A stretch of 20,216 nt of DNA from the IMG/VR virus record IMGVR_UViG_3300021961_000813, positions 1-20,216 of that record. One strand, written 5' to 3'. This document shows, piece by piece, positions 861-16,346 of the stretch. This stretch comes from a virus. Position numbers and translations under genes: made by a program. The notes under the pieces were generated by a model. That model had not been told where the DNA came from and did no database searches. It saw only the letters and a list, made by a program, of their open reading frames with translations. Position 1 is the first letter of the stretch, and each line of letters opens with the position of its first letter.

Positions 861-1175
861 TCAATCACTCCATGTCAAACTTTCTGGTCTATATCTTTGT
901 GTATTTTTAATTTTTAACGTGTTAGATGTTGATGGATAAATGTTATGAACAATCGCCCCTGGATATTCTCCTTGAAGTTGTTCTGCAAGTTCGTTTTTAT
1001 TCATCATTTTACCCTCAACTTCCATGCGATATAGTTTTCCTTGCCAAACTACATCAGCAATGAAAGATTCACCTACTGATTCTGGTTGTGTTTCAGAACT
1101 ATTTACATAAAGATTTCCATTGAAATCTCCAGCAATGTTAATACTTTCTGATATAAACTCTTTAAATGATTTCAT
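861..1175 (-). CDS. Small protein with T4-type capsid-targeting N-terminus; candidate internal head protein
   Basis: This 104-residue protein begins MKSFKEFISES. From memory, T4 internal proteins IPI-III begin MKTYQEFIAEA or close to it; that peptide directs them into the prohead core and is removed by the gp21 protease after an (I/L)-x-E site. Here I8-S9-E10 falls at the same position, and M1, K2, E6, F7, I8 and E10 are identical. After cleavage the mature part would be about 94 residues, starting SINIAGDFNG. It contains GESFIADVVWQGKLYRMEVE (about 35-54) and EYPGAIVHNIYP (about 70-81). I recognise it as a cyanophage hypothetical family but know no function. It sits one base after the basic 591-residue gene. 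The packaging role is inference from the N-terminus alone; the start context shows only a weak GGAA upstream. Confidence 0.8.
   Translation of the reverse strand: MKSFKEFISESINIAGDFNGNLYVNSSETQPESVGESFIADVVWQGKLYRMEVEGKMMNKNELAEQLQGEYPGAIVHNIYPSTSNTLKIKNTQRYRPESLTWSD
868..871 (-). promoter_or_regulatory. Ribosome binding site GGAG for the partial fibre-like gene
   Basis: GGAG is formed by the Trp-Ser codons at the end of the 104-residue gene and lies ten bases before the ATG at 857. It supports that start codon. Confidence 0.65.
1146..1175 (-). other. Putative capsid-targeting sequence with gp21-type cleavage site
   Basis: These bases encode residues 1-10, MKSFKEFISE. The peptide matches the length, charge pattern and terminal I-x-E of the T4 capsid-targeting sequence. 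Predicted cleavage is between E10 and S11. This rests on remembered T4 sequences and was not run through an alignment. Confidence 0.6.
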
Positions 1176-1176
1176 T

Positions 1177-2952
1177 TTAGTTACAGTTCCAACGACGAAG
1201 GGCTCTGTTGATTCTTGAATCTGGATCTCTTGCAGTCTTTTTAGAAGTGAGCTTTTCTTTCATACCTTTCATACGACGACAGAAGTTAGCACGACGCTTT
1301 GCCCTTTTCCCTTTTGGTTTCTTTTCAGTTACTGCAGTCTGAAGTTTTGAACCTGGATTCTCACGACGATAAGCATCAACTGCTGCCTGACTTAAACCAT
1401 CAGTTTTATCTTGACGGTTTACTTTCTGCCAATCTTCCAGAAGCTCTTTTCTCCAATCAGAGAACTCTTCCTTTTTAACACAATCAGGAACCAGTCTTCT
1501 ACCCTTTTTCTTCATACCTACTTGTTTGTGAGTATCCCAGCAAGGGTCTGCATCTTCACTAACAGTTTTCCAACCACCACCTTTTGACTTATACCATTTC
1601 GATGCCCAACCATTGGCATATGCACTGGGATAAACATCAAACTTTTGCTTAGCTAAAGATTTTGCTCTCGACCAAAGTTCTGGATTTGTTGGGACATTTT
1701 TTTCCATGATATTGTCACCAACAAACTCAACATCCTCTTTTCCTAAGATTTGTTTAATTTGGTTTTCTTTTTCTTTGTTTTGTGCCTCAATTTTACCAGC
1801 AACACCTTTTGCTTTATCATATACCGCTTTACCTACTGCAGCAGTTCCTGCCATTAAAGCAAGACGAGCTATATTTGCAGCATTTTCATTCATTTCACCA
1901 CTATCAACATAGTCTGCTGCAGCATCAATATAATCTGCTGCTTTGGTAATTTTTGACTGTACCCAAGCTTCAATATTACCCTCACCCTTCTTCATTTTTT
2001 TCTTAAGTCTTTTCGCTGCAGAAATAATTGTGGAAAGTTCTGAGCGAGCCATCGAATATTCATGGTCATATGACTCTGGGAAATTACCTGGATGTGGAGT
2101 GTTCGGTGTGTATTTCTTCCCAAGACTCACTGGTAAAGAAAACATATCCCAGTATCTTTGTCCATATTGACACTCATCACGAGTCTCGTCTTTTTTACAT
2201 TTAGGGCAATATCTAACCATCATTGCTTCTTGTATTTTGTTAGAAACCATTTTAGGTTTTCCTCCTTTTCCTCTTCGGTTTGCTACAGGATCGCTTTCTC
2301 TTTTTCTTCTTACCGCTGCAGCAATTTCATCTTTAGACATTTTTGCTGCCTTTTCATTAGATAGGCATTTCGGTTTTGGTTCTCCAGGTTCACGAGCACA
2401 AGGACCAATTGCTTCACCTTTAGTATTAAACCTTCTCCAGTTACCTTCTGGAGCATCTTTAGAAAACCATCTTCTTAGATCTTCTTTTACTTCTTTTTTA
2501 ATTGGATCTGGTTTAACCAAATCAATTATTTCAGCAAAAGTGTTTCCATCGCTATCTTCAATAGTGATATTTTCCTTTACGTCTTTAAATTTTTTATGAT
2601 GTTTTTTAGCGGATGCTTCCATCTTTTTTAGACGTGTGTAATAGTCAGGAATTTCTTCAAGATGTTGGAGAGCGATATCGGTTGCAAGATCCTTATCTTT
2701 TGTATGCTCATGCTCAATTGGAATACCCATATCTAGTTGCTTTTGAATGAAAGAAACTTCTAAGCGATGTTTCTTTGCAATTTGTTCAACTGTCTTATGA
2801 GTTTTTACTTCATGCATTTCATTAAATGGGGATTTGGATTTAGTATCTTCTCCCTTTGCTCTTTTCTTTCTACCTGCACAATGAGCACGCTGAGAAAAAC
2901 CGCGTGGATTGTCGCAGTCAATTGATCTTTTATAATCTTTAGACCAAACCAT
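1177..2952 (-). CDS. Basic, cysteine-containing mosaic structural protein (591 aa), function unknown
   Basis: The protein is very rich in Lys and Arg and looks like a string of short modules. Residues 1-31 carry C13 and C25 in SIDCDNPRGFSQRAHCAGRK. Residues 47-115 are helical, with the motif MGIPIEHEHT, resembling DUF5661-type domains (memory, not checked). Residues 158-245 hold RRWFSKDAPEGNWRR and two cysteines, C185 and C196. A possible zinc site is C249-x2-C252-x8-C261. A small-residue helix spans about 357-388. Residues 422-461 contain YPSAYANGWASKWYK. Residues 466-494 form another two-cysteine module, DPCWDTHKQVGMKKK to PDCVKK. Residues 500-591 are highly basic, containing FCRRMKGMKEKLTSKKTARD and ending RRWNCN. 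Similar modules occur in marine phage structural proteins. DNA binding or condensation in the head is inference. An AAGGAG motif lies 15 bases before the ATG. It directly follows gene 16, where gene 17 is expected. Confidence 0.8.
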   Translation of the reverse strand: MVWSKDYKRSIDCDNPRGFSQRAHCAGRKKRAKGEDTKSKSPFNEMHEVKTHKTVEQIAKKHRLEVSFIQKQLDMGIPIEHEHTKDKDLATDIALQHLEEIPDYYTRLKKMEASAKKHHKKFKDVKENITIEDSDGNTFAEIIDLVKPDPIKKEVKEDLRRWFSKDAPEGNWRRFNTKGEAIGPCAREPGEPKPKCLSNEKAAKMSKDEIAAAVRRKRESDPVANRRGKGGKPKMVSNKIQEAMMVRYCPKCKKDETRDECQYGQRYWDMFSLPVSLGKKYTPNTPHPGNFPESYDHEYSMARSELSTIISAAKRLKKKMKKGEGNIEAWVQSKITKAADYIDAAADYVDSGEMNENAANIARLALMAGTAAVGKAVYDKAKGVAGKIEAQNKEKENQIKQILGKEDVEFVGDNIMEKNVPTNPELWSRAKSLAKQKFDVYPSAYANGWASKWYKSKGGGWKTVSEDADPCWDTHKQVGMKKKGRRLVPDCVKKEEFSDWRKELLEDWQKVNRQDKTDGLSQAAVDAYRRENPGSKLQTAVTEKKPKGKRAKRRANFCRRMKGMKEKLTSKKTARDPDSRINRALRRWNCN

Positions 2953-2964
2953 TAAAGAAAAGAA

Positions 2965-3387
2965 CTACTCCTTATTATTTAGAAAACCTTGCTTGAGTAG
3001 TTTTGATAACTCTGATGTTGATCCTACAAATACCGCATTATTGGTAACATTGTTAGTTGTTTTATTACTATCTTCCTCAACATCCTTTAGTTTCTTTTGT
3101 AAGTCAATTAATTTATCTGTTACATCTCCAACACTTTTGATAAGTTGACCTGCCACTTCATATGCTCTTGGAGAATCTGATTCTCCCGCAAGTTCCATAA
3201 TTCCATTTATTGCTTCTTGTCCCTTTTCAATAAGCGAATATAAGTTCGCACGAGTATATTCATAATCTTTTTGAATATCTCCAGTTGTTGTTTTAGTAAC
3301 AACGTCTATTTCAGAGGTAGTTTTTTCTACCTCAACAATGCTGCTCTCAATATTCAGAGCTTTATCAATACTATCAAAGTTTGGCAT
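2965..3387 (-). CDS. 16: Small terminase subunit, gp16
   Basis: In T4, gp16 binds the concatemeric DNA and stimulates the gp17 packaging motor. This 140-residue protein is a little shorter than T4 gp16 (164). Recognisable features, compared with remembered T4 sequence, are DYEYTRANLY at 41-50 (T4 DDYGVVRRNM), DSPRAYEVAGQLIKS at 71-85 (T4 ADSPRHMEVFATLM), a long amphipathic helix to about 105, and NNAVFVGSTSEL at 116-127 (T4 NATVFMGSPTEL). The central helices should form the oligomerisation core. The stop is TAG, and the last codons, AAG GAG, double as a ribosome binding site for the next gene. The gene lies five bases after gene 15, in the T4 order. No Shine-Dalgarno is evident before its own ATG. 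The expected partner gene 17 does not follow. Confidence 0.9.
   Translation of the reverse strand: MPNFDSIDKALNIESSIVEVEKTTSEIDVVTKTTTGDIQKDYEYTRANLYSLIEKGQEAINGIMELAGESDSPRAYEVAGQLIKSVGDVTDKLIDLQKKLKDVEEDSNKTTNNVTNNAVFVGSTSELSKLLKQGFLNNKE
2968..2973 (-). promoter_or_regulatory. Ribosome binding site AAGGAG for the 591-residue gene
   Basis: AAGGAG is the last two sense codons (Lys-Glu) of gene 16. It lies 15 bases from the ATG at 2952, which is longer than optimal. Confidence 0.5.
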
Positions 3388-4439: not shown

Positions 4440-5851
4440 TAATAACTACCAAATGGATTCGATTCTGAAAAATCTAAAATGAGATCAGCAGCTGCTTCAA
4501 TTTCATCATTTTCACTATATTTATCATAAAGATCCATTTCTTCATAAGACTGAACAGAATATCTTGCTGAAGAGCTAGAACCTACAATTATTTCTCCTGG
4601 ATAGAATGTTGGTGTTGTTTTTGCTACTCCAACAAAAGAAACTTTTAAAATCTTAGTATCAACGTCCCAATGCTTAACTCTTGCTTGTAAATTAGAACGT
4701 GAACCAACGACTATTTCATTAAATAAATAAGTTCCAATGCCAGTAATTACTGGTGGTGCTGCAATTGTAACTACTGGTGATGAAGTATATCCATATCCTG
4801 GATTTGATATGTAAATAGATTGTAATATGTTGTTCTTGGTGGAAGAAATTCCAACCGCAGTAACTCCTACTCCAGGACCAATAGATGCTGGACTTGCAAT
4901 TGTAACCACAGGATTAGTTGTATATCCAGTTCCACCATCATTAATAATAAATCTAACTACACCACTATTTGGAGAATTTCTTACCGAGCAAGTTGCTGCT
5001 GCTCCAGTACCTCCACCACCACTTATGGTAATTATAGGTGCTACAGTGTATCCAGCACCTGCATTTGTTAAAATGAGACTTTCAATCGAATAAACTCCAC
5101 CTCTATTTGTTGTAATCGCAACTGCTTTTGCATCATAGGCAGAATTATTTCTTGGTGAAGTTGATATTGAAACCACGGGTTGAGAAGTATATCCCGAACC
5201 ATCATTATTAAGATATATTTGATCAATATATCCAGTATCAACAAGAGCGGTTACTGACGCAGTAGCTCCTATACCAACGAGTTTTAATGTAGTAATGTAA
5301 CCTTCTTCTTCAATTTGTGTATCAATTTCTTCAATGGTCGTATTAATAACCTCATCTTCATACTCAAAGAGTTCACATTTTAGTTCATATACATAAGTCT
5401 TTCCTAACTGATAAAATGGTTGTTCATGTTCAACAAACTTTACTTCGAATAACCTTTCTCCCAATGGAAAATAGATTAAATCTCCTTCTCTTGGACGAGT
5501 TGCTAAAACAATTTCATCAGCATCTGAACCAGATAAAAATGGTGTAATAAAATCTTCAAATCTTTCTTTTGAAATAGTGACAATTAATTCATCTCTTAAA
5601 CTCATTCCAAATTTTGTTAAAATATCTCCTGCACCACCATATCCATCATAAGTATTAACATATGCCTCAAGTGCAAAATTGTCATCAAATCTTGATGACT
5701 GTATTTCTTCAATAATTGTTTGCTTTCTTACAAATTTTCTGGGAATGTAAACAACTTCAACACCATACATTCTCAACTGTTCATTGATTAAATCCTGAAC
5801 TAGTCGTTGTTCACTTGATGTGCCTTGTAAGAAAAAAGGATTAAGTGCCAT
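4439..5851 (-). CDS. 14: Neck protein gp14 with an inserted beta-repeat array
   Basis: In T4, gp13 and gp14 form the neck that closes the filled head and joins it to the tail. Residues 1-165 match remembered T4 gp14: MYGVEVVYIPRKFV at 28-41 (T4 MRGVECVYVPREYV), AYVNTYDGYGGA at 63-74, and EGDLIYFPLGERLFEVKFVE at 122-141, then PFYQLGK at 145-151. The C-terminus DFSESNPFGSY recalls the T4 ending around SFESSPFDND. T4 gp14 has 256 residues; the extra 214 here are mainly an insertion at about 190-370 with four repeats of the type GxGYTxxP-(V/I)-(V/I). A further module near 400-440 reads FYPGEIIVGSSSSARY. The insertion probably projects from the neck; this is inference. Its start codon overlaps the gene 13 stop (TAATG), and no strong Shine-Dalgarno is seen. 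Confidence 0.92.
   Translation of the reverse strand: MALNPFFLQGTSSEQRLVQDLINEQLRMYGVEVVYIPRKFVRKQTIIEEIQSSRFDDNFALEAYVNTYDGYGGAGDILTKFGMSLRDELIVTISKERFEDFITPFLSGSDADEIVLATRPREGDLIYFPLGERLFEVKFVEHEQPFYQLGKTYVYELKCELFEYEDEVINTTIEEIDTQIEEEGYITTLKLVGIGATASVTALVDTGYIDQIYLNNDGSGYTSQPVVSISTSPRNNSAYDAKAVAITTNRGGVYSIESLILTNAGAGYTVAPIITISGGGGTGAAATCSVRNSPNSGVVRFIINDGGTGYTTNPVVTIASPASIGPGVGVTAVGISSTKNNILQSIYISNPGYGYTSSPVVTIAAPPVITGIGTYLFNEIVVGSRSNLQARVKHWDVDTKILKVSFVGVAKTTPTFYPGEIIVGSSSSARYSVQSYEEMDLYDKYSENDEIEAAADLILDFSESNPFGSY
4745..5240 (-). repeat. Four GxGYT beta-repeats inside gene 14
   Basis: Four related units encode GSGYTSQPVV, GAGYTVAPII, GTGYTTNPVV and GYGYTSSPVV. Their GYT cores lie near 5190, 5052, 4925 and 4790, which gives a period of about 45 residues. 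Between cores the protein alternates hydrophobic and polar residues, as in a beta solenoid or stacked beta-sandwich. Boundaries are approximate. Confidence 0.75.
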
Positions 5852-6907: not shown

Positions 6908-8581
6908 TTAAAAAGTTCCTCCATCTAATGTTGATGTCCAATGTGGTTTATTAGTATGTATACCAGTTACGGCAGTTGGGATTACTGAAAGATTCTGAAT
7001 AGAACCGTTATCACCCTCTTTTCTTAAGTTATAAGTATTCGTAAAAGTTCCTTCAACTCCAGTTAATACAAGAGTTGAAACTGTTCCTCCAGTTTTTACA
7101 ACACCATAAGCATTAGATGAATCTTGCTTAATGATATCACCAACAACTACAGTAACAGAACTTCCAAGAGTTAAGTTAACTTCAGAAACAGCAGTTAAAA
7201 TCTGCTTCGAAGTAATAGTTGGAGCGTTTGGATTATTTGTAGAAGTTTGTAATCCATTCTCATCAAAATAGACTACACCGTGAGTATTGTAATCACCAGT
7301 TTGATAGTAGATACCTTTAATATCAAGATATCCTCTAGTACCAGTTACAACACTGTTAGTAATAGTCGCATCTGGGATGTAAGTCCAAGATCTTACCGTT
7401 GCTGAACTACCAACGTTTGCACCATCAATATAACCAAAGAAACCAGTTTTATTATTTGCAGTACCACTACTTGTGTTGTAGTTGAAACCAACACCACGGT
7501 CAGTATTTGTGTCAAATGCGTGAGTAACAGTTAGTTGTGTTGTTGTGCTGATACCTGGAGCAACTGTTGCATCTTGAAGGGTAACAATTTTATTAGATGT
7601 ATCATATGCAGTTACTGTATTGACACCAGACAATGATAGTGCTGCGTTTCCACTAAAAACGTCTCCAGTATTAATACCAATAACTGAGTCCAGTCTAATT
7701 GTACTTACACCAGCAACAACCGTAGTCATTACTGTTCTAACACTTGTTACATCACCAAGAATAATAATAGGATCATTTAAATCAACGGTCGTTGAATTTA
7801 TAGATGTTGTAGTACCATCAACTTGCAAGTTACCTTTGATGATAACTGTTCCTTCATTACTTAAACCATCTGGATATGGATCGATGTAAAGTTCATTTCC
7901 AGAAATTGTGGATATTACATTATCCTGAATTTTAACTACGTCAAAAAATACTGCTCCACCAACGCTGACGTTTCCACCAACGTTCAGATTTTTCTCAATT
8001 CCAACACCACCCTCAACAACAAGAGCACCAGTATCTTTATTGGTAGATTCTGTTACATCACCAATATTGATTGCAACTCCATTTGCAAATGCCCAGTCTG
8101 CACCTTCAATTTCAAATCTATCATCGGTTGCTTCATCATAGCGCATTGCTACGTTTTTATCATCACCAAAACTGAGGTAAGTGTCATCAGGAATTATGAC
8201 GCTACCAATTCCAGTAGGATCGATAATAATATTACCATCAGTATTTGTCGATGATAATGTATTTGTATCTAACCTTAAGTTATCAACATTCCATTGATCT
8301 ACTTTTCTATTACTATCAAGAATAGCAACAATACCGCCATCACTATTTCTTGTATTAGCAACACCATCAATTGCACCTGGTTGGTGCTCCATCATAGATG
8401 TATAGTAATATCCACCTACTGGATTTACATTAGAACCATCATCACCAATAAAAACTCTATCTTTATATTGATTAGTTCCCCCGTAACTGCCAATACCAGT
8501 TACGTATGCTAATTCACCCCAGTTTAGACTTGATGGTTTATTAGTACCAGAGGATCTTTTGATCCTGATAATACTTGCCAT
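6908..8581 (-). CDS. Fibre-like virion structural protein (557 aa)
   Basis: The N-terminus MASIIRIKRSSGTNKPSSLN, continuing to GELAYVTG, is a typical phage fibre attachment leader in which a short basic strand precedes PSSLxxGELAY. Residues near 185-210 contain GALVVEGGVGIEKNLNVGG, a motif widespread in phage tail fibres. The middle is Ser/Thr/Asn-rich beta sequence. RSWTYIPDATITNSVVTGTR and GYLDIKGIYYQ lie near 390-430, and a module VGDIIKQDSSNAYGVVK follows. The protein ends TSTLDGGTF. It occupies the place of T4 gene 12 or wac, so it is probably a fibre or whisker of the tail or neck, though no domain proves which. The start has a strong GGAGGT (8591-8595) at good spacing and overlaps the preceding stop as TAATG. 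Its own last codons carry the ribosome binding site for the next gene. Confidence 0.82.
   Translation of the reverse strand: MASIIRIKRSSGTNKPSSLNWGELAYVTGIGSYGGTNQYKDRVFIGDDGSNVNPVGGYYYTSMMEHQPGAIDGVANTRNSDGGIVAILDSNRKVDQWNVDNLRLDTNTLSSTNTDGNIIIDPTGIGSVIIPDDTYLSFGDDKNVAMRYDEATDDRFEIEGADWAFANGVAINIGDVTESTNKDTGALVVEGGVGIEKNLNVGGNVSVGGAVFFDVVKIQDNVISTISGNELYIDPYPDGLSNEGTVIIKGNLQVDGTTTSINSTTVDLNDPIIILGDVTSVRTVMTTVVAGVSTIRLDSVIGINTGDVFSGNAALSLSGVNTVTAYDTSNKIVTLQDATVAPGISTTTQLTVTHAFDTNTDRGVGFNYNTSSGTANNKTGFFGYIDGANVGSSATVRSWTYIPDATITNSVVTGTRGYLDIKGIYYQTGDYNTHGVVYFDENGLQTSTNNPNAPTITSKQILTAVSEVNLTLGSSVTVVVGDIIKQDSSNAYGVVKTGGTVSTLVLTGVEGTFTNTYNLRKEGDNGSIQNLSVIPTAVTGIHTNKPHWTSTLDGGTF
6918..6922 (-). 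promoter_or_regulatory. Ribosome binding site GGAGG inside the 3' end of the fibre-like gene
   Basis: GGAGG encodes the Gly-Gly of the C-terminal DGGTF and lies 13 bases before the ATG of the 71-residue gene. The spacing is long, so initiation may be less efficient. Confidence 0.6.
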
Positions 8582-8808
8582 TAAAAGTTACCTCCGTTGA
8601 TGTCTAAATTCTGGGTTGCTCCAGGTGTTAAAGTTAAGGTTGCATCCCATTTTTTAGTAGATCCGTTATAAACAAGAACCATACCATCTAAGAGATTAGT
8701 GGCATTAACATCAATTAATTCACTTAATGCAAGACCTCCAGCACCAGCTAATGACGAAACGACCTTTACAGCATTTTGTTGACCTACTCTAACCTTTATT
8801 TCTGCCAT
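8581..8808 (-). CDS. Small virion-associated protein (75 aa), function unknown
   Basis: The sequence starts MAEIKVRVGQQNAVKVVSS and contains LSELIDVNATNLLDGMVLVY, with a C-terminus DINGGNF. It resembles a small protein family recurring beside cyanophage fibre genes (memory). SELxDVN...DGxxLVYN followed by KKWDAT is a pattern often seen in phage fibre segments, so this may be a small fibre or fibre-tip subunit. Its last residues, GGNF, resemble the GGTF end of the next protein. The gene has its own late promoter box (8838-8845) 29 bases before the ATG and is the first gene of that transcript. GGAAG lies about 12 bases upstream of the start. The stop overlaps the start of the 557-residue gene, which suggests coupled translation. 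Confidence 0.78.
   Translation of the reverse strand: MAEIKVRVGQQNAVKVVSSLAGAGGLALSELIDVNATNLLDGMVLVYNGSTKKWDATLTLTPGATQNLDINGGNF
8591..8595 (-). promoter_or_regulatory. Ribosome binding site GGAGG inside the 3' end of the 75-residue gene
   Basis: The minus strand reads ACGGAGGTAACTTTTAATG. GGAGG encodes the Gly-Gly of the C-terminal GGNF and lies nine bases before the ATG at 8581. It strongly supports that start. Confidence 0.8.
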
Positions 8809-8837
8809 TTATAAAATAGCTTCCAGGATCTAAATTA

Positions 8838-8845
8838 TATTTATA
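8838..8845 (-). promoter_or_regulatory. T4-type late promoter box TATAAATA
   Basis: On the minus strand this reads TATAAATA, the full T4 late consensus recognised by the gp55 sigma factor with the gp33/gp45 co-activators. It is followed by a 29-base gap to the ATG of the 75-residue gene; transcription would start near 8832, leaving a leader of about 24 bases. The stop TAA of the upstream 66-residue gene (8841-8843) lies inside the box. Confidence 0.75.
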
Positions 8846-9041
8846 TTCCTTCTATTCCAAGAGATAAACTGCCAGAAGCAAAATTAGAAATCACTTCTTG
8901 CTGCTTCAAATAAAGTTTGTAATAACATTTTGCAACATTCTGCAAAGTTTTAACATCAGTTATAGAATCTATTTCTGATGCATATTTAAAATACTCAAAT
9001 GATTTACTCAGATTTTCTAGACTAATTTTGTCTGGGTCCAT
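8841..9041 (-). CDS. Small conserved hypothetical protein (66 aa)
   Basis: The sequence MDPDKISLENLSKSFEYFKY continues into a helical, Lys/Tyr-rich protein with AKCYYKLYLKQQEVISNF and a C-terminus of SLSLGIEGI. It contains one cysteine and no known motif. An AAAGGAG Shine-Dalgarno (core 9049-9052) lies seven bases before the ATG, so expression is well supported. The first 20 bases overlap the end of the preceding 68-residue gene in another frame. A similarly placed small gene is found in other marine T4-like phages, as far as I recall. Its function is unknown. It sits between the giant baseplate gene and fibre genes, and a role in fibre or baseplate assembly is only inferred from that. Confidence 0.7.
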   Translation of the reverse strand: MDPDKISLENLSKSFEYFKYASEIDSITDVKTLQNVAKCYYKLYLKQQEVISNFASGSLSLGIEGI

Positions 9042-9228
9042 TAATAATCTCCTTTAACAGGTCTTTAATTTCAGAAATATCATTTTTAATTTTTTCAATT
9101 TCCTCACGCTGTTTTTGCTTTTCACTTTTCATTTTAAGATATTGGGAATATCCAAATGTATCACAATTTACAATTGCTCCACTATTTTCATCTCTATAGA
9201 GATTTTTTTCTCCTTCTACTGGTATCAT
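9022..9228 (-). CDS. Small conserved hypothetical protein with coiled coil (68 aa)
   Basis: The N-terminal part, MIPVEGEKNLYRDENSGAIV, then NCDTFGYSQYLK, is a motif I recognise from a small protein encoded in many cyanophages at this location. From about residue 30 to 63 it is a charged coiled coil with EEIEKIKNDISEIKDLLKEI. It contains one cysteine and no signal peptide. Its ATG overlaps the stop codon of the 2372-residue gene by one base (TAATG), so it is probably translated by reinitiation and made in proportion to that protein. Its 3' end overlaps the next gene by 20 bases. Its function is unknown; assembly factor or small baseplate subunit are possible readings. Confidence 0.75.
   Translation of the reverse strand: MIPVEGEKNLYRDENSGAIVNCDTFGYSQYLKMKSEKQKQREEIEKIKNDISEIKDLLKEIINGPRQN
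9049..9052 (-). promoter_or_regulatory. Ribosome binding site AAAGGAG for the 66-residue gene
   Basis: GGAG with flanking AAA lies seven bases before the ATG at 9041, inside the coding sequence of the upstream gene. It decides the start within the 20-base overlap. Confidence 0.8.
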
Positions 9229-12200
9229 TATGCTAAGGCAATAACTCTAATATCTTTGAATAATGGAGTTTTAGCTTCATTTGTAGAACTCATTACAATC
9301 TTAATGGCAAACCCAGTAAACTGTCCAAGGTTTTCAGCGGTAAACTGATATTCTAAGAACTCATTATCTTTGCTTGGTCTTACAAATGCATCAGGTCTGC
9401 CACTATTCTTTGCAGCATTAATCACCACATCACCAAAACCATCTCCATCAGAATCTCTCAGGTTATCATATCCAGGGAATAGAATGAATGATTGATCAAT
9501 TTCACTAGAATCTGACTTAAACAATTGATAAAGAACTCTAAAATCAGATGATGCAGGTCTGTAAGCAGAAAGTAATACTTTGAGAGATGTTGCTGGTTGC
9601 TGTAAGTCAACTCTATTTGAAATATAGATAGAACTATGGGGATCACCCGTTATTAAGTTAGTTCTACCATCAGTTGTATAGTCACTAACTGGATTGTTTA
9701 CTCTAGAGCGAGATAGAATGAAGAAAGCATTTTGAGTATCTAAAACTGGCGATAGATTTGGATCTTCGCTAGTCATATTAACTCTAAGTGTGAGTGACTT
9801 ATTCTTAGGTAAAGACGTAAGTCTTTCAGTTTCGTTCTTTTGTGAGCAAACAATTCTAGGCGTTGATAAGAAGTTCATCTTATTCAACTGAACTGCCTGA
9901 TAACCTTGATCTAAGAATGATACTTCCGTTCCACCAGAACTCGTACCACTCACAGTTCTCATCTGTGCAGAAACTTTTGTATTCTTTCCAGGAGTAATAA
10001 TATTAAAGTGTGGTTCTATTCCGTTGAATTGATAGTTTTGTGAAACAGAAACTTTGTCTCCACCAACATTTTTCTCATCTGTGAAACTAACTTGGTTAGT
10101 TCCTGTAGTTCTCAATCCACGACTTACTTGTACATGATAAGTATCTAAGTCTCTTATCTTCTTCAGATATGAATCTGAAGGTAACGTGTGCGTCTTATTA
10201 ATACTGGTCAATGAAATACCATTTAGTTCATATTTGTAGCAAATATCGCCAGTGGCATGATTAGTAATCAGTGTTCCATCAACACCTCTGGTAGTAATAC
10301 CTAGAGTTCCACCACCCGCTGTACCTGCAGAAATTGAGGTATAGTACATAATTTCATTATTAACCTTTACATATCCTCTAGAAGTTGTAATACCCTCAAA
10401 TGTACTGAATATTGTAGTATTAGCAACAGAGACTGTTGTATCGCTAATGGAAAGATTTCCAGTTAATTGAACTGGAACTGTGTCTGGAGCAACATTCTTT
10501 ATTTCAATAACATTAGAATCAGAATGCATACCATGATTAAACTGATTAATACCAATTACATTTCCACTGTATAATGTATTAATTTCTGAAGAAGTTCCCC
10601 TGATCGTTGTACTTGCAGTAGCAACAGCAGTGCTTCCATCGTAGTATATCAATGTTTGACCATTTGTAAACTCTTCACCTTGAACGTTTGTAAGATAGAG
10701 TGTATCAATTCCATTGATTGATGAGACGGAGATTTTCGCATCTCTTCCCTTGATAACATTGCTTGTTGTAATACCTAAAACGTCACCAACAGCATATCCA
10801 TTTCCAGTATTAGCAATACTTACAGTGTTTACAAATCCACCACTGGTTATTGTAACAGTTGCTGTTGCACCAGAACCTTGACCAGTTATTGTGTAGAGAG
10901 GAACATTACTATAAGTTCCGCCAGAAGTTCCACCGGAATATCCAATACCCGTATTTGCTACAGAAACACTTACAATTGATCCACCAGTTTTTTCAACATA
11001 TCCACTTGAACCTGGAGACGAAATAGAACCATTACTTACTTTTCTACCAACAGTTAGAACTGAATTCATTACTGTAGTAGTTGTAATACCAACTTTCAGT
11101 TTTCTTGGATAAGTTGTAATTGCATTATTGTTTAAATATGCAATTGCAGAAGACTCTGGTATTAGAGGTGGATTATAAAATACAACATCACCAGTGTTTG
11201 CTGTAAACTTAGCTTTATAAAGTTTAAACTTCAGGTCTTCAAACTGACTTGCAGTCCAAATAGTTCCATTTTGAGATTTAAATAGACTTCCACCACTATA
11301 CTGTTTTGTTACAACAACACTTTCTGCAGATGGTAAACCTGCGGTATTAACAGTCTTCTCACCCATCTTAGCAATCCACATCTTATATTTGTCTGTCGTT
11401 GGTGCTAAGAACACCAATGCATATTCAACGTTTGGTTGAAGATAGACTGGAGATGGGAATTTGATGTTTGTAACAACACTTGCATCCGATGATGTATTAA
11501 TTTGTGTAGGATCTAAAGCAACCCTTGCATAGTCAGCAACAAGTTGACTTGTTGGGGTTCCTAGTTCAACAGTTCTCAATTCAACATATAGTTTTTCATT
11601 TGGATCTTTTTCACCAAAATAAACATCGACTGACGTTAAGAATGCTCCAGTACCATCTACAGTAAACGACTGTGCAAGTGGGTCTTTACCGCCACCGCGA
11701 CGTGGTGGTGGTGGGGGAGGTGGTGGGGGAGGATTTCTTACCTGAACTATATTTGTGATCTGGGTTTGAATTACACCAGTTCCACTGTATGATGTTTGTG
11801 CAGAAGAAATAGAAGATGCATCTCCAGGCAATGGACGTGCATTTTCTGAACTTTGAGTTAATTTGAATACTCTTTCACCACTTCTAATTCTTACCAGTGG
11901 AACTGGTGTTGAATTTGGATCCCTAATAAAGAAACAACCAAACAGATCACCATACGTATCTGTTACTAGTTTAATATCAGATACTGTTGCGACAGCTCCA
12001 CTAGTTTTACCTATTAATTTGGCACCAACCTGAACATATCCACCATATCTGGTTAAAGATTCTTCTGCTAAAGAGAAAGTATCAATATTTAAAACTGTAG
12101 ATGATGCTGAGTATGCTGAAGGTAATGCGACAGATCTATTATATGGATTAGCATTATATTCTGTAGTTGGGTTTGTATATGAACCAGTCTTATGTGTTGG

Positions 12201-15200
12201 TTTTGCAGTTCTGAATGTAATAATTTTTTGAGCACCTACATATCCATCAACATCTTCACCAATATTAAATGCTCCAGAAATCATAGAAATTTCTAGTAGT
12301 TTTGGAACAATATCAATTGAACTTATGTCATCAATAAAACTGTAATGTCTTGTCAAAGGTCTTAGAGAACCAGATCTAAATTCTACATTTCTAGACCTTA
12401 AGAAAGGATCGGGTTCACTGCTTATCTTAACACTTTCAACATAATCATAACTTCTACCATCTTGTTGCCCATCACTAATTGTTCTTGTATTCTTAATGTA
12501 AATATTTCTTACCCAGTTGTCTGATGATGGATTTAAAAGTACTCTACCAGCATATTCGACAATATTAAATGGATTAACATTTTCAACTTGAGATGCAAAT
12601 GGTTGTTCTAACCAACCAACTTCATCATATTTGAGTGTAATTAAATCACCAGTCTTTCTTACATTTGTATCTAACAGTGTCAAATTGGATGAGAAATCTG
12701 CTGTTGTAGTATCAATACTTGGTGCTAAAGCAAGTTCTGCTTTTAAAGACCAAAAATCAGTAGCAGGAATCAATTGCTCTTCTTTAGTATCGACATCACA
12801 TTTTACATCTGGATTTGTTTTGTTGATAAGATCATTATTCTTGAAATCATCTACAAAGAAACCCGTTTTAAATCTTGACAATCCATCAGTGTCTTGAACT
12901 TGAAGTGTTTTTGTATTAACTTCAAGTAAAGAAAGTGACGTTGTTAGTTCTAAAGTTTCAATTCTATCTTCGAGAGTTCCAATGTCTCTCATAGTATATC
13001 TTCTATTATCTACTAAAGTAATCTTTGCATCTTGTGGGTTGTAAAGATACGCTGGAAGACTAATAGTAGCAATATCCATAGACTCTTCTACATTTAAAGA
13101 GACTTTTGGTTGCAATGATGATACACCTTTTATTACAGAGAATTCACCAAGTTTATTAAGAACAATTTTGTCTATTCTTGGTAGATAATAACTATATCCA
13201 AGTAAAGAACTCTCATTTGGAGTTATAACTGAGTATGATGATGATGTTACAAATGAACGTGCTGCATAATCAAATGGTGATGCTGTTGCTGAAGTAAACT
13301 CAGATACTCTAGGTCTAAAATCAAGTGTATCAGATGCTCTTAAACCGTTGGCAAGAATTGGAACATCTTTAGAGAATCTTTCTTCTTGATATGAATTAAC
13401 TGTAAATAAGTCTCCATCATCATTAGTTGCAACATCATAATAATTAAATACTACTAATAATCTTCTAGAAGGAGACGTAGTTCCACCAACTCTAACTATT
13501 CGTGAATAATCATAAAACTGTTCTTTCTGACCTTTATCTAAAGTATATTCGGTAGTTTTATTTAAATAACTTCCTGATGTTATAGTTTGAATATTTGTTG
13601 TGATATTTGATTCTTCAAATGTAACAGTTTCTCCCACTTGGAAAGTCTGAGAATTGAGATATACAAATTCTACTTCTGTTCCTGATGGTAATAAAGTTAC
13701 TGCTTGTGCAACTGCTCCGGTTGAACTTCCGATAATTTTTTCACCAAGTATAGCATTAGTATTCAAGCTTAGTCCAGAAACAAACGTTAATTTGTCTAGA
13801 ACTGGATCAGACTGATTAAGCGATTCATATATTGCAATTACATTGACAACATCTGGAACATTTAAAGAAATTTCATTATCTTCAACTCTTGTGCCATAAA
13901 ATTGACTTGTAGTTAATCCACTAATAGCAGTTGAAAATCCAGTGCTTGTCTTATTAACAACTAATTTTCTACTTCTTACGTAATTTTTATTCTTATTCTT
14001 TAATATCTGTTTTCTTAGTGTGGTATTTACTGTAACGTTAGAACTTTGACTTGCCTTCAATCCTGTTAAAGTAACTTGGGTTCCATCATTATTCAGTTGG
14101 AATTGATCTGAAGACAAATCTTCTATTGTGCCATCAGCATAGAATACAGAATACCTTTCTGCATCAAAAGACTCAAAAAATGCACTAGAAATACCGGTAT
14201 TTGAAACTGTTATAACCGCTGTTCCTGCTGAGTTTGTAGAAACCTCTCTAACTTGTGAAGTTACCAGTAGGTTAGAGTTTGAAAGGTTTACTGATGATAT
14301 ATTATTTGCATTTAACTTTGTGTATAATGATGCTTTATCTGAGTTCTTAATTTCAGGAACTGCTAGACTAAATGTGCTAGTTTCTGAAGATGAGGGAAGT
14401 GTTCCATCACATACACCATTTACTGATGGGACACTGGTGACAGTCATTGAAAAACCATCAGCAGAGACAGAAACCACTTTATTGAAAGTATCTACTGTTG
14501 TTGATACTCCAGATTTCTGATATCTGATAATTGAGTCTGTTCTAATTCCTAAGAAGGTTTTTCCTGGGCAAGTAACAATACCTGCAGAGTTTACGGTAAT
14601 TCTATCTGTAATATTAAATCCAGATGGTATTTTTCTAAACAGAGAAGCATCCGCAGAAAAAGCAGTTTTTAACGCTGGGGTAATTCCTACTGCATTTTGA
14701 TAAACCGATTTAACATCTTCTGTAGAATACTCAGTTAAGAAATTAATTGAACGTGAGTTTTCTAAACTTTCATTGATAATAATCTGTTCACCAACTATGA
14801 AAGTTCCTGAAGTTTGAGTTATTGTCAAACTTCTTGATGTTGATGGTGCAGTAACTACATATCCAGATGCACCACTACTCAATCCACGAATGTATGATCC
14901 TGCAGGACATTGTGCAGAATTTAAAGTTTCGTTTAAATTAAGAACCGTATAAGTTTGAACATCAAATAAGTACAAGTCCCATGGAGTTGTTTGATTTGTA
15001 TAAGTTGAATCAGTCAAGTTAAAGGCATAGACTCTAGCTTCACCAACAAGAGTTGTCCCTGATCCAACTGCACCTTTTCTTTGATTGAAAAGTTTTACTG
15101 TATTTCCACTTGTATTGATACCTACAAAAGGAGTTCCAACAACATTGTTAATTCTTAACAGATTTCCCATTTCAAATGGGACTAAAGCAGTGTTAACTGT

Positions 15201-16346
15201 TTGAATATCTCTTGGTTTTTCAATATCTAAAATTGTAGATGATGGTAGATCAATATCATATCCTCTTACATATGCTGTTCCTGGAGAAACTTTATAGCAT
15301 AAAAGATCATCAGAAGGTGTGTTACCATCATCTGTTTTTTGATTTGGTAAATATATTCCTTCATTCGAAATTCTATCGTTTAAAGAATTTAAAGCACTAA
15401 CATCAAAGTTTTTTAATGCATAGTCACCAGATTCTTCAAAGGTTCTTTTAGCAAAATAGTCTTTGATGACAGAATAAACAGATTTATCTTGTAATTTTTT
15501 AACCTCTCCGTTATCAATTCGAATTAACTCAACAAAGTCTTTATCATCAAAATCGTCTATATCTTTTTTGGATAAAACAGTGCTGATTTTAAATCTATCG
15601 GCACCTGGAGCCGCATAGTTTGAAAAACCTCTTGCGTTATCATTTAATGAAGGATCATCATTCGCAGTGACAATTTCTTCAAAAATGCTTAGACCAACTC
15701 TATATGTTGGTGAATTAGAGTATGGTTCAAGTATGACTAGAGAATCTTGTACATCTACAAAAGTCCCTCTAATGAAGTAAACACCTGCAGATAAACCGAC
15801 TGCGGAACCAGTAGCAGTTGCATTTACATCAATTAAAGATGCAACTGTATCTCCAGAGTTAATAGCAGTATTCCCATATACTAAAGTATCAAGGAGAATT
15901 AATGTTTCACCATCTTCAAAGGTGATGGTTTCAAAATCTGTTCCTCCAGAAGTATACTTAATATAGAGAGTAACATCTTCTACATTATTATCTGGTGGAA
16001 TACTATAATTTTTAACTGTAGCGACAACTCCAGAATTTTGACCTTCTATTCTTTTTCCTACAAGTTGGTCTAGATATAGAGATACATCAATTCCAAGATG
16101 TTCAGAATTTATTTTTATTGAATAATATTTTGAATCATAAGTTACGGATCCTGGAATAACCATGGATCCTTCTTTAAAAATATGACTACCGAACGATTCT
16201 ACCTGATGCTGTAGAATAGACTGTAAAGTTGTCAGTTCTCTTGACTGAACAGGGTATCCTGGTTTAAAAAGAACCCTATAGAAATTTTTATCGACGCTAA
16301 AATCGTCGAAATATGGGTTAATGTTGAAATTAGTTTTCTGTGGCAT
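9228..16346 (-). CDS. Giant baseplate or tail structural protein (2372 aa), DUF4815-type N-terminus
   Basis: The N-terminus NFNINPYFDDFSVDKNFYRV, then LFKPGYPVQSRELTTLQSIL, matches the DUF4815 family of phage baseplate-linked structural proteins (memory). Most of the chain is beta-rich, with recurring modules such as GEKIIGSSTGAVAQAV. Residues 1539-1548 are ten prolines followed by RRGGGKDPLAQSFTV, the start of a domain found in many marine phage tail proteins. Two GxGY repeats lie near 1795-1855. A module with NNEIMYY, TRGVDGT and NHATGD lies at about 1960-2035, similar to the insertion in gp15. The C-terminus holds D2298-x-D-x-DG-x-x-D2306, a calcium-loop pattern, and ends FKDIRVIALA. It fills the T4 gene 9-12 interval, so it probably links baseplate wedges to fibres. 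It starts three bases after gene 8, without a clear Shine-Dalgarno. Confidence 0.85.
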   Translation of the reverse strand: MPQKTNFNINPYFDDFSVDKNFYRVLFKPGYPVQSRELTTLQSILQHQVESFGSHIFKEGSMVIPGSVTYDSKYYSIKINSEHLGIDVSLYLDQLVGKRIEGQNSGVVATVKNYSIPPDNNVEDVTLYIKYTSGGTDFETITFEDGETLILLDTLVYGNTAINSGDTVASLIDVNATATGSAVGLSAGVYFIRGTFVDVQDSLVILEPYSNSPTYRVGLSIFEEIVTANDDPSLNDNARGFSNYAAPGADRFKISTVLSKKDIDDFDDKDFVELIRIDNGEVKKLQDKSVYSVIKDYFAKRTFEESGDYALKNFDVSALNSLNDRISNEGIYLPNQKTDDGNTPSDDLLCYKVSPGTAYVRGYDIDLPSSTILDIEKPRDIQTVNTALVPFEMGNLLRINNVVGTPFVGINTSGNTVKLFNQRKGAVGSGTTLVGEARVYAFNLTDSTYTNQTTPWDLYLFDVQTYTVLNLNETLNSAQCPAGSYIRGLSSGASGYVVTAPSTSRSLTITQTSGTFIVGEQIIINESLENSRSINFLTEYSTEDVKSVYQNAVGITPALKTAFSADASLFRKIPSGFNITDRITVNSAGIVTCPGKTFLGIRTDSIIRYQKSGVSTTVDTFNKVVSVSADGFSMTVTSVPSVNGVCDGTLPSSSETSTFSLAVPEIKNSDKASLYTKLNANNISSVNLSNSNLLVTSQVREVSTNSAGTAVITVSNTGISSAFFESFDAERYSVFYADGTIEDLSSDQFQLNNDGTQVTLTGLKASQSSNVTVNTTLRKQILKNKNKNYVRSRKLVVNKTSTGFSTAISGLTTSQFYGTRVEDNEISLNVPDVVNVIAIYESLNQSDPVLDKLTFVSGLSLNTNAILGEKIIGSSTGAVAQAVTLLPSGTEVEFVYLNSQTFQVGETVTFEESNITTNIQTITSGSYLNKTTEYTLDKGQKEQFYDYSRIVRVGGTTSPSRRLLVVFNYYDVATNDDGDLFTVNSYQEERFSKDVPILANGLRASDTLDFRPRVSEFTSATASPFDYAARSFVTSSSYSVITPNESSLLGYSYYLPRIDKIVLNKLGEFSVIKGVSSLQPKVSLNVEESMDIATISLPAYLYNPQDAKITLVDNRRYTMRDIGTLEDRIETLELTTSLSLLEVNTKTLQVQDTDGLSRFKTGFFVDDFKNNDLINKTNPDVKCDVDTKEEQLIPATDFWSLKAELALAPSIDTTTADFSSNLTLLDTNVRKTGDLITLKYDEVGWLEQPFASQVENVNPFNIVEYAGRVLLNPSSDNWVRNIYIKNTRTISDGQQDGRSYDYVESVKISSEPDPFLRSRNVEFRSGSLRPLTRHYSFIDDISSIDIVPKLLEISMISGAFNIGEDVDGYVGAQKIITFRTAKPTHKTGSYTNPTTEYNANPYNRSVALPSAYSASSTVLNIDTFSLAEESLTRYGGYVQVGAKLIGKTSGAVATVSDIKLVTDTYGDLFGCFFIRDPNSTPVPLVRIRSGERVFKLTQSSENARPLPGDASSISSAQTSYSGTGVIQTQITNIVQVRNPPPPPPPPPPRRGGGKDPLAQSFTVDGTGAFLTSVDVYFGEKDPNEKLYVELRTVELGTPTSQLVADYARVALDPTQINTSSDASVVTNIKFPSPVYLQPNVEYALVFLAPTTDKYKMWIAKMGEKTVNTAGLPSAESVVVTKQYSGGSLFKSQNGTIWTASQFEDLKFKLYKAKFTANTGDVVFYNPPLIPESSAIAYLNNNAITTYPRKLKVGITTTTVMNSVLTVGRKVSNGSISSPGSSGYVEKTGGSIVSVSVANTGIGYSGGTSGGTYSNVPLYTITGQGSGATATVTITSGGFVNTVSIANTGNGYAVGDVLGITTSNVIKGRDAKISVSSINGIDTLYLTNVQGEEFTNGQTLIYYDGSTAVATASTTIRGTSSEINTLYSGNVIGINQFNHGMHSDSNVIEIKNVAPDTVPVQLTGNLSISDTTVSVANTTIFSTFEGITTSRGYVKVNNEIMYYTSISAGTAGGGTLGITTRGVDGTLITNHATGDICYKYELNGISLTSINKTHTLPSDSYLKKIRDLDTYHVQVSRGLRTTGTNQVSFTDEKNVGGDKVSVSQNYQFNGIEPHFNIITPGKNTKVSAQMRTVSGTSSGGTEVSFLDQGYQAVQLNKMNFLSTPRIVCSQKNETERLTSLPKNKSLTLRVNMTSEDPNLSPVLDTQNAFFILSRSRVNNPVSDYTTDGRTNLITGDPHSSIYISNRVDLQQPATSLKVLLSAYRPASSDFRVLYQLFKSDSSEIDQSFILFPGYDNLRDSDGDGFGDVVINAAKNSGRPDAFVRPSKDNEFLEYQFTAENLGQFTGFAIKIVMSSTNEAKTPLFKDIRVIALA
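10785..10950 (-). repeat. Two GxGY beta-repeats inside the giant gene
   Basis: The units encode SVANTGIGYSGG and SIANTGNGYAVG, about 138 bases apart. They have the same core and period as the array in gene 14. Boundaries are approximate. Confidence 0.65.
11703..11732 (-). repeat. Ten-proline codon tract with 12-bp tandem repeat
   Basis: On the minus strand, ten consecutive proline codons occur. The first eight are two copies of CCTCCCCCACCA, and two CCA codons follow. Bases here are strikingly G+C-rich compared with the surrounding gene. It marks a flexible or rigid linker between the N-terminal part and the KDPLAQSF domain, and is a slippage-prone site. Confidence 0.9.

Follow-up and report, generated by a model that had tools for sequence, protein, structure and literature searches.

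In this article, I describe a basic mosaic protein from a cyanophage-like virus in which eight conserved modules are strung on poorly ordered linkers, and the explanation I lean towards, judging from sequence patterns, is that T4-like cyanophages carry it inside the head as a cargo polyprotein, which the prohead protease would cut. The head-interior reading is drawn because single modules also occur as stand-alone genes with capsid-targeting leaders and because protease-type sites are concentrated in the linkers. I consider it about evenly balanced whether the gene is, beyond this, a shuffled module cassette that is packaged as one chain and freed by the prohead protease, such that exchange of modules would swap the injected or DNA-associated cargo.

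Genomic setting and family membership

The window, meaning the whole stretch of 20,216 nucleotides analysed here (IMG/VR record IMGVR_UViG_3300021961_000813), is a cyanophage-like fragment, and profile searches match the genes preceding the mosaic ORF to a T4-type head-tail adaptor, neck protein, gp15 and gp16. The first-pass annotation had placed the mosaic gene beside the small terminase and next to a gene with a head-targeting leader, and both neighbours are as described, with the gp16 match directly upstream (slashes mark putative cuts throughout):

861..1175, minus strand: downstream gene, 104 aa, with leader MKSFKEFISE/S and module M10 (phrog_1742)
1177..2952, minus strand: mosaic protein gene, 591 aa, with a PHROG_727 match and the cyanophage T4-GC119 locus
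2965..3387, minus strand: small terminase, gp16-like, the usual upstream neighbour of the mosaic gene

The whole 591-aa chain has a computed pI of 9.6 and a net charge of +39. PHROG_727 covers most of it (residues 106-590, E 6.5e-58); other PHROGs match single segments. By profile match and gp16-adjacent location, the protein is a member of PHROG_727/T4-GC119, which occupies the same locus in S-SM1, S-SM2 and P-SSM2, while the best whole-length match is in Synechococcus phage S-SRM01 and at least one module is shared with relatives in hundreds of cyanophage records. The gene sits in the cyanomyovirus g15-g18 region, a stretch reported to be hyper-variable in these phages (PMC2984593; PMC3037559). 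Upstream of the neck genes, the window also contains a 2372-aa ORF (9228-16346).

A mosaic of conserved modules

The modules of the protein are as follows:

2860..2952, minus strand: M1, residues 1-31, SIDCxNPxGFSQxAHC
2599..2796, minus strand: M2, residues 53-118, DUF5661, contains HEHT
2287..2478, minus strand: M3, residues 159-222, WF...GPCAR...PKC, with C185/C196
2131..2214, minus strand: M4, residues 247-274, RYCPxCxxxETRxxC, with C249/C252/C261
1900..2067, minus strand: M5, residues 296-351, DHEYSMAR...AWVQSKITKAADY helical unit
1570..1671, minus strand: M6, residues 428-461, YPSAYANG unit, DUF5872-like below threshold, Cys-less variant
1468..1545, minus strand: M7, residues 470-495, CWxxHKQVGMKKKG...PDC, with C471/C491
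1183..1434, minus strand: M8, residues 507-590, DUF6321, net +17, with C558/C590

In Pfam, M2 matches DUF5661 (PF18905) over residues 56-112 with 55.1 bits against a curated cut-off of 27 (E 1e-14), and the HEHT motif at residues 81-84, which the first-pass annotation had read as a helical module of its own, lies within this match. The strongly basic tail that it had pointed out corresponds to M8, which matches DUF6321 (PF19846) over residues 514-588 with 47.1 bits against a curated cut-off of 28.5, and M6 reaches 22.9 bits with DUF5872 (PF19197), below the cut-off of 27.5 (E 1.4e-4). The cysteine groups at 13/25, 185/196, 249/252/261 and 471/491 are all there, and a fifth pair in the basic tail, C558/C590, had been missed. 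The Cys-bearing modules of the window protein are therefore the five M1, M3, M4, M7 and M8, whose Cys columns are 99-100% Cys across 41-125 unique instances, and the cysteines of an additional module, M9, are likewise 99-100% conserved. Among relatives, the two M6 cysteines are both present in 41 cases and both absent in 13 (the Cys-less form found in the window protein), a truncated row being the sole exception, which fits pairing, by disulfide or metal. M4 resembles half a zinc ribbon, with only three conserved cysteines against the four metal ligands of a zinc ribbon, and a residue other than Cys might conceivably serve as a fourth. Sequence comparison of relatives also reveals long invariant stretches besides these near-invariant cysteines.

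Profiles made for ten segments (M1-M10) and run on the fetched loci returned 140 multi-module proteins in about 50 architectures, containing the modules of the window protein and two more, M9 and M10. The order varies (M7 before M4, M4 before M3, M7 doubled in some relatives), M1 and M10 are separate genes in some relatives, and M10, its own gene downstream in the window, forms part of the mosaic protein in many others. Modules thus change places, drop out, are doubled or become genes of their own. M8 nearly always forms the C-terminus, and the reading frame is also kept in nearly all members. The earlier suggestion of independent mini-domains strung together is borne out, each segment being conserved separately and recurring in other proteins and orders. 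Modules also appear in other proteins: in Vibrio phage VPs20 (4392-5660 of the fetched locus), a protein encoded near the terminase and annotated DUF2213 contains DUF5661, and a protein of Methylophilales phage Melnitz (1987-3939 of its locus) combines a leader-like start, an apparent cytidylyltransferase domain and M7.

AlphaFold2, given 31 sequences, modelled the mosaic protein with a mean pLDDT of 56 and a pTM of 0.23, the linkers being low and M5 and M6 low as well. This whole-chain model argues against one globular fold, without thereby establishing the folds of the modules, and at a pLDDT of 56 it is unsuited to fold search. Modelled alone, M8 reached a pLDDT of 72, yielding no PDB match and only its own family in a viral library, and a sequence search of solved structures gave nothing credible (best E 0.54). 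The first-pass annotation had further proposed DNA binding or condensation, and here the charge of +39 is compatible with DNA binding, but no DNA-binding fold was found in the solved-structure sequence search or the M8 fold search.

Capsid-targeting leaders and protease-type sites

The internal proteins of T4 carry a ten-residue leader, in which residues 4/7 target and 8/10 are processed, and gp21 cleaves after L/I-x-E (PMC9026906). M1, M8 and M10 also exist as stand-alone genes with a T4-type leader of this kind. In several relatives M1 is a 51-aa gene (MKTFKQFQE/EWTNKYKKS...) immediately upstream of mosaic ORFs without M1; M8 occurs behind MKTYNDFITE/VAAW... or MKTFNQFIAE/EAW...; and M10 follows MKSFKEFISE/S.. 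directly downstream in the window. Fused relatives have internal leader-like motifs just before M8 (RSFGQYIKE/VAAW, KTFENFMSE/VAAW, QPFSSFLEE/SAAW). The window mosaic protein starts MVWSKDYKRS and lacks an N-terminal capsid-targeting leader, and the linker before its M8 resembles an internal targeting and processing site in sequence:

1435..1467, minus strand: linker before M8, residues 496-506, EFSDWRKELLE/, aromatic-xx-aromatic plus LxE
2227..2235, minus strand: predicted prohead-protease site IQE/A between M3 and M4, by motif only

The prohead-protease-type motif was taken as hxE, that is [ILVMF]xE, with the cut rule borrowed from T4, and the LxE close to the N-terminus of cyanophage gp23 fits, without proving, the use of this rule in cyanophages. 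Such motifs occur in all seven inner linkers of the window protein (shuffle P 0.0005), strict [IL]xE in only some of them, and the whole protein has 11 sites against 5.2 expected from shuffles (P 0.003); besides IQE/A, sites predicted by motif only end at E45, E127, E157, E293, E356, E417, E466 and E506. Single-linkage clusters gave just 17 linkers, and an independent set of 97 was added, in which kinship is reduced but not removed so that its z-scores should be read loosely: here hxE stands at about 1.65 times shuffles, a level reached by 0 of 500 shuffles. Other spacings gave 0.79 (hE), 1.12 (hxxE), 0.90 (hxxxE) and 1.20 (hxD), hxE is depleted inside modules (0.86), and the controls were 1.64 for the gp22 scaffold of three phages and 1.16 for 27 other cyanophage proteins. 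The slight rise in ordinary phage proteins and the mild rise of hxD in linkers count against reading the motifs as cut sites.

The boundary before M8 was followed most closely, with Glu counts anchored on the M8 Trp, as spacing varies. A Glu lies 2-5 residues ahead of this Trp in 93/96 unique cases, with a hydrophobic P3 in 67/86, and the two cases without it come from Pelagibacter phage Lederberg and Planktothrix phage Pra-JY27. A further scan found the Glu in 29/29 fused copies versus 0/44 leaderless stand-alone copies (eight of these 44 ORFs had a too-early automatic start, the evident one being MAKTPAW), and 27 of 34 loci with fused copies, against 4 of 44 with stand-alone ones, have T4-like genes close by. 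Since the Glu precedes M8 in fused or leader-bearing copies only, it lies outside the module proper. The existence of M8 alone and leaderless in loci without T4-like genes counts against processed cargo and shows that M8 is able to act outside the prohead route. Prochlorococcus podovirus P-SCSP1a has DUF6321 as a gene of its own, placed between those for the major capsid and the tail tube (4959-5213 of the locus), a position that suggests a head role outside T4-like phages.

Virion evidence from relatives

In S-CREM2, ORF137, which comes after the small terminase and one more gene, ends in M8 and has only M8 and an M10-like region in common with the mosaic protein, is listed in the virion MS table with 4 peptides and 4.1% coverage. 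S-SCSM1_29 (M3-M7-M4-M8) is annotated 'virion protein', a label I read as MS detection, the genome paper reporting 45 MS-detected proteins (PMC9602691), and S-P4 annotates its own copy as structural protein, T4-GC0119. The leader+M8 protein S-SZBM1_192 is absent from the S-SZBM1 virion list, which counts against the reading. The gp16-adjacent S-SZBM1_195, abundant in the virion, was set aside because by eye it looked unrelated to the modules. Four S-CREM2 proteins have the leader pattern at their annotated starts (gp14 kinase, gp15, gp154 cytidylyltransferase and CP12), and all of this small set except CP12 (3/4) are in the MS table.

The first-pass assignment to the head thus gains support from the leaders on stand-alone modules, from the hxE sites in linkers and from virion reports or annotations for relatives. 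Three findings that could have told against that annotation went the other way, in that the model shows no single fold, virions are reported to contain relatives, and conservation of the cysteines was found. What it did not see was the likely processing by a protease.

A proposed route and its rivals

Cleavage, leaderless targeting, binding to DNA, injection and the role of the individual modules are what I infer, along the following lines. The mosaic protein would enter the prohead core, where, leaderless as it is, it could possibly be targeted via internal sites such as EFSDWRKELLE; a gp21-type prohead protease would then cleave its linkers C-terminal to [I/L/V/M/F]xE, and the released small modules, mostly basic and Cys-paired, would stay with the DNA inside the head and probably be delivered into the host like the internal proteins of T4.

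The main rival, which I regard as possible but distinctly less probable, is that this is an uncut virion protein, perhaps also head-internal, that works as a flexible string of DNA- or protein-binding domains with Glu-rich linkers as mere spacers. The linkers are indeed disordered in the AlphaFold2 model and rich in Glu (0.115-0.12), and cleavage is a prediction from motifs; however, spacers of this kind do not account for an enrichment tied specifically to hxE spacing and equal to that of gp22, for the loss of the Glu before M8 in stand-alone copies, or for complete leader+site motifs at the internal boundaries of fused relatives. A cytoplasmic late protein, acting alongside the terminase or on nucleic acid of the host, with the virion detections explained as carry-over, would suit the usual position beside gp16 and the low MS coverage of S-CREM2 ORF137, but it is improbable given that stand-alone versions of three modules bear capsid-targeting leaders and that in two isolates, S-CREM2 and S-SCSM1, a relative is in the virion list or carries a virion annotation. 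Least credible, and already weakened, is a fast-evolving collection of non-functional or selfish short modules, an idea that the hyper-variable location (PMC2984593) and the numerous architectures invite, but against which stand the near-invariant cysteines, the long invariant stretches and the preserved frame and C-terminal position of M8 in nearly all members.

Comparison with known systems and significance

In a comparison of features, the processed-cargo reading places the mosaic protein closest to T4 IPI/IPII/IPIII and Alt (PMC9026906), with which it shares basic cargo, a short leader of like type where modules stand alone, [L/I]xE-type sites and a T4-like head gene neighbourhood. However, each internal protein of T4 has its own gene, is trimmed at one terminus and bears an N-terminal leader, whereas the mosaic protein consists of many fused modules with predicted sites between them and has no such leader in the window. 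The T4 scaffold gp22, which is cut into many pieces by gp21, is similar in its many internal hxE sites and in their enrichment, but it is Glu-rich and mostly removed from the head, whereas the mosaic protein is basic and has conserved Cys modules. T4-GC119/PHROG_727, catalogued as a hypothetical protein, shares the gp16-adjacent locus and several modules, although the S-SM1 copy is without M1, M2 and M5, all of which the window protein has, and the Pfam families DUF6321, DUF5661 and DUF5872 each cover one domain without an assigned function and do not describe the whole chain.

Relatives have so far been annotated merely as hypothetical or structural, and in the literature searched I found no earlier paper that describes these modules as head cargo undergoing processing. 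If the proposal is true, several marine-virus domains of unknown function would gain a function, a rapidly changing terminase-adjacent gene would be explained as exchangeable head cargo, and a simple rule, a leader or an hxE boundary, would predict the cargo that cyanophages carry into cyanobacteria. The S-CREM2 virion list also contains an APH-like kinase with the leader MKRFDAFLTE and a neighbour annotated Cas9 (10579-12846 and 7704-10313 of the locus).
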